64,000 nt of DNA from Microbacterium luteum (GTDB lineage Bacteria > Actinomycetota > Actinomycetes > Actinomycetales > Microbacteriaceae): contig NZ_CP063814.1 in assembly GCF_015277875.1 (NCBI RefSeq), positions 1,550,001 through 1,614,000 on the forward strand, in the 5' to 3' direction. Shown here in pieces: positions 16,055 to 58,491 of the stretch (positions are counted from its first letter, which is position 1; the number at the start of each line of letters is the position of its first letter). The notes under the pieces were generated by a model, which saw only the letters and a program-made list of their open reading frames with translations, made no database searches and had not been told where the DNA came from. The position numbers were made by a program, and so were the translations under genes.

Positions 16055-16095
16055 GCCCTCGTAGCTCAATGGATAGAGCATCGGCCTTCTAATCC
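16055..16095 (+). pseudogene. 5' half of host tRNA-Arg(TCT), cut by prophage integration
   Basis: Acceptor 5' strand GCCCTCG, D arm GCTC..GAGC and the anticodon loop CTTCTAA are present. The sequence then enters phage DNA that has no T arm and no complementary acceptor strand, so the gene is truncated. Its missing 3' half is at 58492-58523. Joining the two halves gives a complete 73-nt cloverleaf with one G-U pair in the acceptor stem. Confidence 0.88.
16082..16095 (+). repeat. attL core
   Basis: CGGCCTTCTAATCC in the anticodon arm of the split tRNA. It matches the attR core except at position 8 (C here, G at 58485). The last six bases, TAATCC, are identical on both sides and are the most likely crossover region. 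The minus-strand reading of this core supplies the stop codon of the repressor gene. Confidence 0.88.
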
Positions 16096-16376
16096 ATAGG
16101 TCGCACTTCCGGAGTCTCCGGGTCGCCGGCCGCAAGGTAGCCGGCGTAGAACTGCACCGGGTCGACCTTGAGCAGGCGAGCAATCGACTCGAGCTCATCG
16201 GCCAGGAATGCGGTCGTTCCGTTCATGCGCGTCGCGAGGACGCTGTTGGTGATGCCGATAGCGAGGGCGGCAGCGCGGACGGACCAGCGCTCGGCCTTCA
16301 GTGAGTCGTGCACGTAGGCGGCACGGGCGGCTCGCGTGTGGTCAGCAGCCGGGCGAAGCTCGGAGATGTTCGACAT
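16089..16376 (-). CDS. Phage immunity repressor (HTH), truncated by integration
   Basis: A 95-residue DNA-binding protein with a helix-turn-helix at about residues 31-52 and a following TAFLADELESIARLLKV segment also seen in the Cro-like protein opposite. The ATG at 16376 is 7 nt after the TACACT -10 box, so it is leaderless. The stop TAG (16091-16089) lies in the attL core. In the rejoined phage form (16096 joined to 58491) the stop becomes TAC and the frame continues for 24 more residues to TGA at 58415-58413, giving 119 residues. The protein family is inferred from the HTH and its position. See findings for the switch model. Confidence 0.82.
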   Translation of the reverse strand: MSNISELRPAADHTRAARAAYVHDSLKAERWSVRAAALAIGITNSVLATRMNGTTAFLADELESIARLLKVDPVQFYAGYLAAGDPETPEVRPMD

Positions 16377-16498: not shown

Positions 16499-16729
16499 AT
16501 GACGCAGACCACTTCACGAATTGCGGACAAAGTACGCGGCGTCGCGGCTGAGAAGCGGTTCACCCAGGGCGCGATTGCTCAGGCGCTGGGCATCGCACGC
16601 AGCAGCGTAGCTGAGCGGCTCGCCGGTCGGGTCTCCTTCACGGCGGACGAGATTCTCAAGCTCTCTGCCGCGATGGACGTCCCGGTCTCACGGTTCTTCC
16701 CGGAGCCCTCCCTGGAGCGTGTCGCATGA
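16499..16729 (+). CDS. Cro-like HTH regulator
   Basis: A 76-residue XRE-type protein with HTH at about residues 22-43 (TQGAIAQALGIARSSVAERLAG). The layout after the HTH, FTADEILKLSAAMDVPVSRFF, parallels the repressor on the other strand, so the two probably read the same operators. ATG 16499 was chosen for its 7-nt distance from the -10 box; a longer in-frame start at 16463 would lie in the promoter. The stop overlaps the antirepressor start (ATGA). Confidence 0.85.
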   Translation: MTQTTSRIADKVRGVAAEKRFTQGAIAQALGIARSSVAERLAGRVSFTADEILKLSAAMDVPVSRFFPEPSLERVA

Positions 16730-17487
16730 CCGCCGTCGAGACGTTCCGATTCGGAGCGCACGGCCTGCGTGCTCTCCTGATCGACGGCGAGCCGTGGTTC
16801 GTGGGGGCCGATGTCGCCGCCGTCCTCGGATACGACCGCACCTCGAACATGTCCCGCATGCTCGACGAGGACGAGAAGGGGACTCACATTGTGAGCACCC
16901 CTGGTGGAGATCAGGAGATGCTCACCATCTCCGAGCCGGGTCTCTTCGCGGCCGTGATCCGCTCGCGCATCCCCGAGGCGCGCGAGTTCAAGCGCTGGGT
17001 GACGCACGAGGTGCTCCCCAGCATCCGCCGCACCGGTTCGTACGCCGTGCCCGAGACGCGCGAGCAGCTCCTCGCCCGCGCCGTCCTCGAAGCATCCGAG
17101 GCGATCAAGGAGAAGGACGAGCACATCGCCGAGCTGACCCCGCGCGCCGAAGCGTGGGACGAGCTCGCATCCGCGGACGGCGACTACGAGGTCGCCGACG
17201 CTGCGAAGATCCTCGCCCGCGCCGGCGTCGAGACCGGCCGCCAGCGACTCTTCTCCCAACTCCACGGCCTCGGATGGATCTACCGCGGCACGCAGGGGAA
17301 GTGGACTGCGAAGCAGACCGCCGTGGATTCCGGCTACCTCCGGGAGAAGCCGCAGTCCCACCACCATCCCCGCACCGGTGAGCTGATCCTCGATCCGCCG
17401 CAGGTGCGCGTCACGCTCCGCGGGATCGAACGGCTCCGGGTGCGCCTCGGTGTCCTCAAGCCCGTCGAGATGGCGGTGGTCTCGTGA
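16726..17487 (+). CDS. Phage antirepressor (BRO-N plus KilA-C/ANT domain)
   Basis: A 253-residue protein with an N-terminal BRO-type domain (WFVGADVAAVLGYDR, then REFKRWVTHEVLPSIRRTGSY), a coiled linker, and a C-terminal antirepressor domain with GLGWIYRGTQGKW. Such proteins act against the immunity repressor or modulate early gene expression. It is coupled to the Cro-like gene by an ATGA overlap, as expected for an early lytic operon. Confidence 0.88.
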   Translation: MTAVETFRFGAHGLRALLIDGEPWFVGADVAAVLGYDRTSNMSRMLDEDEKGTHIVSTPGGDQEMLTISEPGLFAAVIRSRIPEAREFKRWVTHEVLPSIRRTGSYAVPETREQLLARAVLEASEAIKEKDEHIAELTPRAEAWDELASADGDYEVADAAKILARAGVETGRQRLFSQLHGLGWIYRGTQGKWTAKQTAVDSGYLREKPQSHHHPRTGELILDPPQVRVTLRGIERLRVRLGVLKPVEMAVVS

Positions 17488-56821: not shown

Positions 56822-57121
56822 GTGGCACACCTCATCGAAGAGATCAAGCGACAACTCAGGTTGCAGGGCAGCGCTCAGAACGTGGTCGAATCTGACGAAC
56901 AGGCCGAAGAATGGCGGACTGCTGCGCGCGCGGCGGCGCGTGAGATGGGGCGCCCTGTCGAAACGGTCCAGAGCGAGTATGTGGTCGCCGCGTCGTTGAA
57001 GGATTGGCCGGCAAACGAACTCGAGGCGGAGGTGCATCGCGCCAGGCTTCATAACGCGATCGCTAGCCTGCCGTGGCTTCCGTCCCCCCGGGGCGATTCG
57101 AACGCCCGACCGACGGATTAG
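56822..57121 (+). CDS. Small protein overlapping the phage tRNA-Arg
   Basis: 99 residues from GTG 56822, 6 nt after TACTCT (56810-56815), divergent from the gene at 56762. The first 80 residues look genuine and helical (TAARAAAREMGRPVETVQ). The last 13 are the antisense of the tRNA gene. Function unknown. Confidence 0.55.
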   Translation: MAHLIEEIKRQLRLQGSAQNVVESDEQAEEWRTAARAAAREMGRPVETVQSEYVVAASLKDWPANELEAEVHRARLHNAIASLPWLPSPRGDSNARPTD

Positions 57122-57155
57122 AAGGCCGCTGCTCTATCCACTGAGCTACGGGGGG
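57083..57155 (-). tRNA. Phage-encoded tRNA-Arg (anticodon TCT)
   Basis: A complete 73-nt cloverleaf on the reverse strand: acceptor CCCCCCG/CGGGGGG, D arm GCTC..GAGC, anticodon loop CTTCTAA, T arm GGGCG-TTCGAAT-CGCCC, discriminator A, no encoded CCA. It carries the same unusual C31-U39 mismatch as the host gene and the same 14 bases as the attL core (57115-57128). It differs in the other stems, so it is not a recent copy. Confidence 0.93.
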
Positions 57156-57163
57156 TGACCGAT

Positions 57164-58021
57164 CTAGGCTACCCGGCGGCCGGATCGGTCTGGAACGGTG
57201 ATGCGGGGGAGCGCGAGCATGGCCCGTTCGATCGACTCGTCCTTGACGCGGACGTAGCGTTCGATGGACTGAGTGTCGCCGTGGCGCATGGCGGCCGAGA
57301 CGACGATGGTCGGGGTGCCGGCGTCGATCATCTCGGTGGCGAACCAGGCGCGCATTTGGTGGGGTCGGTGGTCGATGCCGGCGCGTTTCATAGCGGCGGA
57401 GAGGACGCGGGAGACGTTGTTCGCGGTGACGTGTTTCTCATGGTCACGCGGGGAGGGGAACAGCCACCCCGACGTGCGCCAGGTTTCGAGCTGGTCCCAG
57501 ACGACGGGATGGAGCGGGCGCCACACCTCCTTGCCGTTCTTCCCGTCAAGGGAGAGGAGGCGCCGCCGGTCCCAGTCGACGGATCGGGTGCCGTGCACTG
57601 CGGCTATCTCCTGAGCGCGGAAGCCCTGATATGCGTAGAGGAGTACCCACATGCGAGTGCGGCGATAGATGCCGGACGCGAGGAGGTACTCGATGTCGTC
57701 TGTGGTGACGGGGTCGGGTTCGACTTTCGGGACGCGGACCTTCGGGAGGCGTACGGCTGGGTTGTCGGCGCGGAATTGCTCTTCCTGCATCCATGCGAAG
57801 AACCCGTGGTAGGTGCTCTTGTAGCTGGAGCGTGTTGAGGCTTTGATGCCGGGGCGGCCGAGGTCTCGGATGAGGTCGTGGCGGGTGACGGTGAGGAGTG
57901 TGCGTTCGGTGCGGCGGAGCATGGCTGCGAGGGCGATGCGTCGCTCTCGGATGCTCTTGTTGGTCGATCCGGATGCGGCCAGGTAGGAACCCCAGTAGTC
58001 GAGCAGGGCGTCGTCGTCCAT
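57164..58021 (-). CDS. Tyrosine integrase of the prophage
   Basis: 285 residues from ATG 58021 (GGGGGGAGAGAG upstream). N-terminal core-binding domain, then the catalytic set Arg135 (GFRAQEI), Lys161 (DGKNGKE), HQMR (His221, Arg224), His247 and Tyr256 (QSIERYV). It lies beside attR and the phage tRNA, so it most likely performs integration and excision at the tRNA-Arg site. In the circular phage it follows the repressor and the zinc protein. Confidence 0.9.
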   Translation of the reverse strand: MDDDALLDYWGSYLAASGSTNKSIRERRIALAAMLRRTERTLLTVTRHDLIRDLGRPGIKASTRSSYKSTYHGFFAWMQEEQFRADNPAVRLPKVRVPKVEPDPVTTDDIEYLLASGIYRRTRMWVLLYAYQGFRAQEIAAVHGTRSVDWDRRRLLSLDGKNGKEVWRPLHPVVWDQLETWRTSGWLFPSPRDHEKHVTANNVSRVLSAAMKRAGIDHRPHQMRAWFATEMIDAGTPTIVVSAAMRHGDTQSIERYVRVKDESIERAMLALPRITVPDRSGRRVA

Positions 58022-58149: not shown

Positions 58150-58416
58150 TCAGCCGGCGGTGTCGCGCATGTAGGCGCGGGTCATGATCGGGAAGTCGCG
58201 ACGGTCACAGCACGTGGGGCATGTGTAGAGGCTTCCGATTGACCCGTCGGGGCGCACGGATTCGGCGGGGTAGGGGGCCATGCTCCACCCGTTCGGGATG
58301 TCGCTGAACCGTGCCGTGTCGCGGGAGCCGCTGATGCGCCCGCAGATGTGGCAGACGAGCTGCACGCGTCCGGACTTGGTCGGGATGAGGTTGACGACCT
58401 CGGTCGCGATCCTCAT
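58150..58416 (-). CDS. Zinc-knuckle phage protein between repressor tail and integrase
   Basis: 88 residues with CHICG (about residue 22) and CPTCCDRRDF (about residue 66), a probable two-knuckle zinc site. Its ATG overlaps the stop of the repressor tail (ATGA at 58416-58413), so in the phage form it is translationally coupled to the long repressor. It may be an excisionase/regulatory partner (inference). Confidence 0.78.
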   Translation of the reverse strand: MRIATEVVNLIPTKSGRVQLVCHICGRISGSRDTARFSDIPNGWSMAPYPAESVRPDGSIGSLYTCPTCCDRRDFPIMTRAYMRDTAG

Positions 58417-58491
58417 CCCGCCACCTCCGCGATGACCGCGCGGGCGGCGAAGTCGACGTGGACGACGTCGGAACCTGCGGCCTTGTAATCC
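58413..58491 (-). pseudogene. Orphaned 3' end of the repressor gene (phage-form C-terminal tail)
   Basis: Reads in frame with the repressor when 58491 is joined to 16096. It encodes Asp, Tyr, Lys and then a tail ending AVIAEVAG before TGA. In the prophage it has no start codon. It is rich in small hydrophobic residues at the end, like SsrA-type degrons. Confidence 0.75.
58478..58491 (+). repeat. attR core
   Basis: CGGCCTTGTAATCC, direct repeat of the attL core with one mismatch (G at 58485 in place of C). The preceding sequence is phage; the following 32 bp are the host tRNA 3' half. Confidence 0.86.

Follow-up and report, generated by a model that had tools for sequence, protein, structure and literature searches.

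Integration-dependent immunity reportedly goes back to a founding paper by Broussard et al. in 2013, on the mycobacteriophages BPs, Brujita and Charlie. The scheme is established in mycobacteriophages (PMC4557955, PMC8092301, PMC9934374), and stop codons created by the first bacterial base at attL have already been reported in it (in a section of PMC8092301), so that a host-donated stop codon is not in itself new. A second scheme, tRNA-dependent lysogeny, is established for Fionnbharth, cluster L and Gaia (PMC10865867), in a paper whose main text does not contain the word "Microbacterium". Because an integrase-defective Fionnbharth still confers immunity (PMC10865867), Fionnbharth lacks integration-dependent immunity.

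Here we describe a prophage in a 64,000-nucleotide stretch of Microbacterium luteum DNA (this whole stretch is called the window below). The prophage very probably merges an integration-dependent immunity switch with tRNA-dependent lysogeny.

The prophage interrupts the anticodon loop of a host tRNA gene

The prophage spans 16083-58491 of the window (~42.4 kb) in a host genome of 3.52 Mb. Its two junctions are made up of the following parts.

16055..16095, plus strand: 5' part of the host tRNA-Arg(TCT) gene at attL
16083..16095, plus strand: attL core, GGCCTTCTAATCC; base 16089 is C, the host base, at anticodon position 35
58479..58491, plus strand: attR core, GGCCTTGTAATCC; base 58485 is G, the phage base
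58492..58524, plus strand: 3' part of the host tRNA-Arg(TCT) gene at attR

When attB was rebuilt from the two flanks, ARAGORN recognised a complete tRNA-Arg(TCT), while it found no tRNA in the attL or the attR stretch taken singly. The element therefore sits in the anticodon loop, and the tRNA gene is broken and not rebuilt. As in tRNA-dependent lysogeny, the core is short and the host tRNA is left unrepaired at both junctions. The attL and attR cores are 13 bp long and differ by a single mismatch (16089/58485), and the core 13-mer occurs in two exact copies in the genome, one at attL and one in a tRNA gene carried by the phage.

We looked for the empty site by running the rebuilt attB, a query of 123 bases, against 119 genomes with BLAST, and examined the two stronger matches, in G011 and G341. 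Both genomes belong to the same genus as the window and hold an intact tRNA-Arg(TCT) attB, with 100% identity over bases 13-102 of the query in G011 and 94% over bases 14-101 in G341, and anticodon position 35 is C in both. A tRNA-His gene is the neighbour, in the same orientation, at both the G341 site and the window. A stricter pattern search of 24 relatives for the rebuilt tRNA, with a tolerance of 3 mismatches, found no empty site.

Integration shortens the repressor at a stop codon antisense to the anticodon

The gene that runs into attL from the phage side encodes a likely repressor, whose continuation lies at the other end of the prophage.

16089..16376, minus strand: repressor, prophage form, 95 aa, HTH; stop codon TAG at 16091-16089
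58413..58487, minus strand: 24-codon repressor tail (TAC ... TGA), continuous with the repressor only when the phage is free or circular

The repressor matches Pfam HTH_3 with an E-value of 2.7e-4, which is below Pfam's cut-off, the PHROG transcriptional repressor family with an E-value of 7e-5, and the c1 repressor of phage Min1 at 49% over 51 aa. Its frame is antisense to the tRNA and its last codons are GAT TAG, so that the protein ends ...RPMD; the TAG is the antisense of anticodon bases C35 and U36 plus A37. A sequence-only reading had placed this stop inside the attL core, and had proposed that rejoining the prophage ends turns it into TAC by way of the G at 58485, after which the frame would run 24 residues further and end at a TGA (58415-58413) that overlaps the start of the next gene as ATGA. 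All of this agrees with the coordinates that we obtained: the open reading frame at 16089-16376 ends in TAG, the mismatch 16089/58485 is the only one in the core, and the rejoined frame reads GAT TAC and encodes 119 aa, ...RPMD-YKAAGSDVVHVDFAARAVIAEVAG. After the TAC the rejoined frame continues as KAAGSDVVHVDFAARAVIAEVAG, up to the TGA in ATGA. As in integration-dependent immunity, the attP core lies within the repressor coding sequence, and a stop at attL shortens the prophage form.

The promoter side of the broken tRNA gene (16055-16095) faces the 3' end of the repressor gene, so that the lysogen may make RNA antisense to the repressor.

Five other phage genes lie near the two junctions.

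16499..16729, plus strand: cro-like HTH gene, 76 aa, divergent from the repressor (HTH_3 2.9e-6; PHROG transcriptional repressor 1e-10)
16726..17487, plus strand: antirepressor, Bro-N + KilAC/ANT (Pfam and PHROG matches)
57082..57155, minus strand: phage-borne tRNA-Arg(TCT), the predicted substitute for the broken host gene (ARAGORN)
57164..58021, minus strand: tyrosine integrase, 285 aa, C-terminus -RRVA (Phage_integrase 5e-17)
58150..58416, minus strand: small ORF, 88 aa, its ATG overlapping the TGA of the tail; in the phage form it lies between the tail and the integrase

Neither Pfam nor PHROG gave a match to the small ORF, searched as the 87 residues that follow its initial Met. The integrase matches that of Min1 at 76.5% over 82% of its own length. 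A second integrase in the window's genome (G000:C1:1766996-1767841; L031) is 35% identical and possibly belongs to another prophage.

The phage-borne gene at 57082-57155 is the sole complete tRNA-Arg(TCT) found in the 3.52-Mb genome when it was searched for a TTCTAA loop plus T-arm; no second intact host tRNA-Arg(TCT) was found by this pattern, which a tRNA departing from it would escape. The phage tRNA is cognate to the broken one, with anticodon TCT, as is the case in tRNA-dependent lysogeny. Neither the loss of the host tRNA nor the phage copy that would stand in for it figured in the sequence-only reading. The phage tRNA also shares the attB core (CGGCCTTCTAATCCG), and no rule by which the phage spares it as an attB emerged on inspection by eye.

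The arrangement recurs in related prophages and free phages

With the integrase as bait, we found relatives in genomes of the genus (21, of which G000, G042, G037, G147 and G155 were examined), in IMG/VR, in named genomes and in phage records (333, a minority of them examined). In all 15 prophages of which both ends were read, attL carries a stop codon and attR a Tyr codon, each after GAT. The stops are 13 TAG (tRNA-Arg) and 2 TAA (tRNA-Lys), and the Tyr codons are 13 TAC and 2 TAT. The pairs are distributed as follows.

tRNA-Arg(TCT): the window, G042, G037, Leucobacter sulfamidivorax, four Arthrobacter strains, Glaciibacter superstes, Microcella alkaliphila, Rathayibacter sp. and two IMG/VR prophages
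tRNA-Lys(TTT): G187, which was found with the repressor as bait, and L163/L166, the fifteenth pair

The two ends lie on separate contigs in three of these pairs (Arthrobacter 18067, PsM3 and Rathayibacter), and a further locus that repeats Glaciibacter (L098) was excluded from the counts. Every one of the 15 paired prophages encodes a cognate tRNA; the one in Leaf141 is partly N-masked and was identified by inspecting the sequence instead of with ARAGORN.

Intact attP forms, with repressor and tail in one frame and Tyr at the core, were found 16 times: in Min1, in eight Arthrobacter FF phages and in seven IMG/VR contigs (L079, L085, L088, L091, L093, L095 and L097, the last of which is repeated by L099). 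Five further loci show the phage-side end alone, likewise with Tyr: L076, where the contig starts at the core, L080, L082, L107, where the attL contig ends directly after the core, and L165, which is of the Lys type. Tyr thus occupies the core codon in 36/36 cases (15 pairs, 16 attP forms and 5 single ends). The bases after TAC vary in L079, L080, L085, L101 and L102.

Min1, whose record names the attP-bearing gene a probable c1 repressor, is a Microbacterium phage homologue with the same attP position, of the kind that the sequence-only reading had proposed to look for. Its repressor frame reads ...PKDYKAAVSDLTAYRAAKAAG, with TAC (residues ...RQPKDYKAAVSDLTAYRAAKAAG; the gene contains CTTTGTAATCC), so that in this close relative of the window's phage the free form carries TAC in frame, and not the TAG that would have refuted the sequence-only reading. 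Min1 also encodes a tRNA-Arg(TCT). Min1 has, however, been reported to reside in plasmid pMN1 (in a section of PMC7302621), so that it may use something other than a chromosomal tRNA as attB. An AlphaFold model of the Min1 repressor alone was uninformative (mean pLDDT 56). In the Min1 record (EF579802, 1-828; L003) the annotated integrase (1-771) covers the tRNA-Arg at 42-117, and the homologous integrase frame is 130-828, possibly owing to a frameshift or a sequencing error in the record.

The eight FF phages (Ryan, QuinnAvery, Cole, Popper, Zaheer, Nandita, Elesar and Gusanita), which are near relatives of one another, all have TAC in frame. The labels given to the attP-bearing gene differ: it is annotated as Cro in Popper, where another gene is named the immunity repressor, but as the immunity repressor itself in QuinnAvery. 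A second integrase is present in most FF phages. For QuinnAvery a tRNA-Arg, two integrases and lysogen candidates have been reported (PMC13097055), and the first part of that report describes neither an attP nor a truncated repressor.

We found the motif in 15 of the 25 loci of the IMG/VR set (two of the 15 are repeats and one is Min1), a set in which 9 of the 25 loci have no more than about 400 bp before the integrase and are little informative; in L092 it was absent from the 1.5 kb before the integrase. In the named-genome set, 9 of the 14 loci have the motif, and it was absent from the stretches scanned in L106, L109 and L111-L113, whose integrases are 30-40% identical. A later set comprised three loci, of which L164 came with no upstream sequence. 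In G147, whose integrase is 70% identical, no repressor or att site was recognised; the tandem integrases there (G147:C1:2990609-2992308; L011, L030, L041), one with an in-frame stop, suggest a decaying or hybrid-looking element. We rejected G155 (L006, L047) and G198 (L008, L049) as instances of the same design: their repressor relatives adjoin an intact tRNA-Val(TAC), an arrangement that preserves the tRNA. A search of 366 genomes with an attR-type pattern missed G037, and 9 of the 11 places that it found look like ordinary tRNA-Thr(TGT) genes.

Two other loci drew our attention in the course of these comparisons. At the Microcella attR (L101:5395 and 5459) there are two tandem antisense 3' halves of tRNA-Arg, one of them without the TAC core, which suggest repeated integration or a remnant element. 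In the Gordonia phages Eyre and Hedwig (L072, L073), as we read the sequences, the 3' end of the repressor gene overlaps, in antisense orientation, what resembles the 3' half of a tRNA-Thr(TGT) (TTACAAGG), and the repressors end -ADAA; the TGT anticodon may be the source of the G in the attP of the tRNA-Arg phages.

To gauge how distant the repressors are, we compared 14 of them (13 prophage forms and the Min1 repressor cut at the core). No BLASTP match at 1e-3 was obtained for 68 of the 91 pairs, and the nearest to the window's repressor was 42% identical. All 13 prophage forms end in Asp-stop. A junction, a frame and an Asp-stop that are common to very distant repressors speak for selection on the arrangement over recent common descent of the repressor.

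The tail is a candidate degron

The earlier suggestion that an open, coupled tail is unlikely by chance did not survive. Of 3000 dinucleotide shuffles, 75% had a frame without a stop for at least 23 codons (P about 0.75), and an ATGA or GTGA end after at least 11 codons appeared in 32%. Because an open tail is so common in shuffles, we dropped the argument from chance and let the comparison carry the case, which stands above chance because the arrangement recurs in related phages and prophages.

The tails vary in sequence, and in length from 12 to 48 residues. As a group they are enriched for -AA ends: -AA closes 12/32 tails versus 4/143 other coding sequences (Ryan 68, Min1 75; Fisher p = 2e-7), in a test that counts related tails as independent and leaves out L079, L085, L163 and L165. 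When only distinct tail ends are counted, -AA is found in 8/24 (p = 2e-5). In a Microbacteriaceae-like subset, which is our own grouping and includes some rows of unknown host, -AA ends 2/15 tails (p = 0.10), and Ala is found in the last two positions in 12/15 versus 43/143 (p = 2e-4), by a criterion picked post hoc. The window's tail ends -VAG, and the host's tmRNA tag, as given by ARAGORN, is ADKKQSDFALAA. The Microcella tail ends -RAR and that of IMG_2910241274 ends -SGR. Among 23 distinct integrase C-termini, a raw count gives 16 in -AA and 4 in -VA (the window's included); the integrases of Microcella, L097 and Min1 end in neither. In published systems, several groups carry -AA tags on both proteins, repressor and integrase, and others have different signals of unknown nature; integration-dependent immunity systems without -AA tags thus exist (sections of PMC8092301). 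To judge from these sequences, the tail is likely to act as a degron; as a prediction this is well supported for the Arthrobacter group, with its -AA ends, and weaker for the window's tail, with its -VAG end.

The overlap between the tail and the next gene suggests another role, namely translational coupling. On that account read-through would let ribosomes reach the ATGA or GTGA and start the genes toward the integrase, the tail would be no degron, and integration would stop the coupling. The tail stop does overlap the next start in the window and in G042, and in the eight FF phages it lies in a GTGA that is the annotated start of the next gene. However, the overlap is absent in Min1 (TAA) and in G037 (GCCTGA), and coupling has no need of Ala-rich tail ends. 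We consider it improbable that coupling replaces the degron, alongside which it could also operate.

It is very improbable, in our view, that the tail has no bearing on repressor stability or immunity at all. This would fit the differences among the tails in sequence and length, and also the similar DNA binding in vitro of BPs gp33-136 and gp33-103 (PMC4557955, in part). Yet diverse repressors retain the frame and the Asp-stop/Asp-Tyr pair in 15/15 cases, and -AA ends are enriched among the tails.

The stop base is derived from the host

In tyrosine integrases the region of strand exchange is 6-8 bp long. Over 14 pairs, attL and attR are identical for 6-7 bp 3' of position 35 (TAATC plus one or two bases) and for 0-7 bp 5' of it, with no 5' identity in G187, Microcella and Rathayibacter. 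It follows that the exchange lies 3' of the mismatch or includes it, and hence that the stop base is host-derived. This upholds the earlier claim that the host anticodon donates the stop, as do the C in the intact attB of G011 and G341, the TAC in Min1 and the 15/15 paired prophages. A crossover 5' of the mismatch, which would mean that attP has TAG, was considered and rejected: 3 of the 14 pairs are without 5' identity, and the intact attB has C.

With T36 and A37 fixed as part of the shared core, TAN is the only form open to the phage codon, and of these only TAC and TAT avoid a stop. An open frame would therefore require the mismatch at position 35, which fits 36/36 cases. That the core difference is instead a post-integration mutation or an assembly error, attP really being TAG, is barely credible: the window taken singly has 7 bp of 5' identity that would permit a crossover on the other side, but Min1, each of the eight FF phages and a further 12 tRNA-Arg prophages have the same G, and a TAG in attP is already contradicted by the three prophages without any 5' identity and by the C in the intact attB.

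A model for the switch

The model that we propose rests, at the sequence level, on a tRNA gene that is split, a stop codon paired with a Tyr codon, a tail that is in frame, a phage tRNA that is the sole intact copy found, and the recurrence of the arrangement. In the free phage, attP would lie inside the repressor gene, the core being translated as Asp-Tyr-Lys; the long repressor is probably destabilised by its C-terminal tail, which in the window's phage has 24 residues. Repressor, small ORF and integrase would then form one leftward run. The integrase would recombine attP with the anticodon loop of the host tRNA-Arg(TCT), and we infer that the crossover falls within the 6-7 bp that directly follow anticodon position 35 on its 3' side. 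In this way attL would gain the host C35, and the antisense repressor frame would hit TAG and terminate after Asp. The short repressor is expected to be stable and active and to maintain lysogeny. Integration would also separate the integrase from the repressor promoter and destroy the tRNA, for which the phage tRNA-Arg(TCT) would presumably have to substitute.

Whether this amounts to a general logic gate from anticodon to stop, in which the repressor stop of this phage group is supplied by anticodon positions 35-36 and A37 read in antisense, seems to us an even bet. If it does, attB would be limited to tRNAs whose antisense reads as a stop. The attB anticodons would end in CU or UU with a shared TAATC core (Arg, Lys, possibly Ser and Asn), and attP would have to retain a purine (G or A) in place of position 35, a sharp prediction as to which tRNAs such phages may use. 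Immunity would have to await integration into the correct essential tRNA, with the lysogen surviving only by the phage's spare tRNA, so that one recombination would verify the site, switch immunity on and make the host dependent on the prophage.

The model would explain the Asp-stop shared by very distant repressors, and it offers a reason for the tRNA-Arg gene in Min1 and the cluster FF phages. Because the FF phages grow on a laboratory strain of Arthrobacter and lysogen candidates are reported for QuinnAvery, it is directly testable.

Comparison with known systems

We found no description of an anticodon serving as a repressor stop in the literature searched (open-licence papers, among the matches listed). 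The phages nearest to the window's, Min1 and the FF phages, share its integrase group, a repressor that runs through GATTAC and a tRNA-Arg(TCT) beside the integrase. They differ in being free phages, and in the parts of their reports covered here the attP within the repressor, the truncated form and the role of the tRNA are undescribed (PMC7302621, PMC13097055).

Among lysogens, prophiT36-2, a tandem prophage of M. abscessus, comes close, with integration-dependent immunity and a tRNA-Thr thought to compensate for an impaired tRNA at attL. It differs in its 40 bp core at the 3' end of the tRNA, which is impaired by acceptor-stem mismatches only, and in that the compensation is speculated and attributed to a second prophage (PMC9934374, in part). 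The known examples of tRNA-dependent lysogeny resemble the window in that the host tRNA is not rebuilt, the phage carries a cognate tRNA and the core is short, at 8-17 bp; they involve tRNA-Lys, Ile2 and Leu, and the table in the portion of that paper covered contains no tRNA-Arg case (PMC10865867).

The mycobacteriophages BPs, Brujita and Charlie, as far as the sections consulted describe them, likewise have attP inside the repressor gene and the integrase downstream, with a prophage repressor made 20-35 residues shorter by a stop at attL and, in many systems, a tail that bears a degradation signal. In those systems a tRNA attB lies at the 3' end of the gene, the tRNA is kept (impaired by mismatches in prophiT36-2), and translation of the repressor ends at the junction or close to it. 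In the window, by contrast, the anticodon loop serves as attB, the anticodon read in antisense gives the stop, a mismatch in attP lifts the stop, and the tRNA is destroyed. We regard it as well supported that the locus is a recurrent coding switch that fuses two established schemes. A single strand exchange would do three jobs, placing an anticodon-derived stop in a regulator, breaking an essential tRNA and letting a phage-borne replacement take over, and would thereby bring together two schemes that the literature covered here has mostly described apart.
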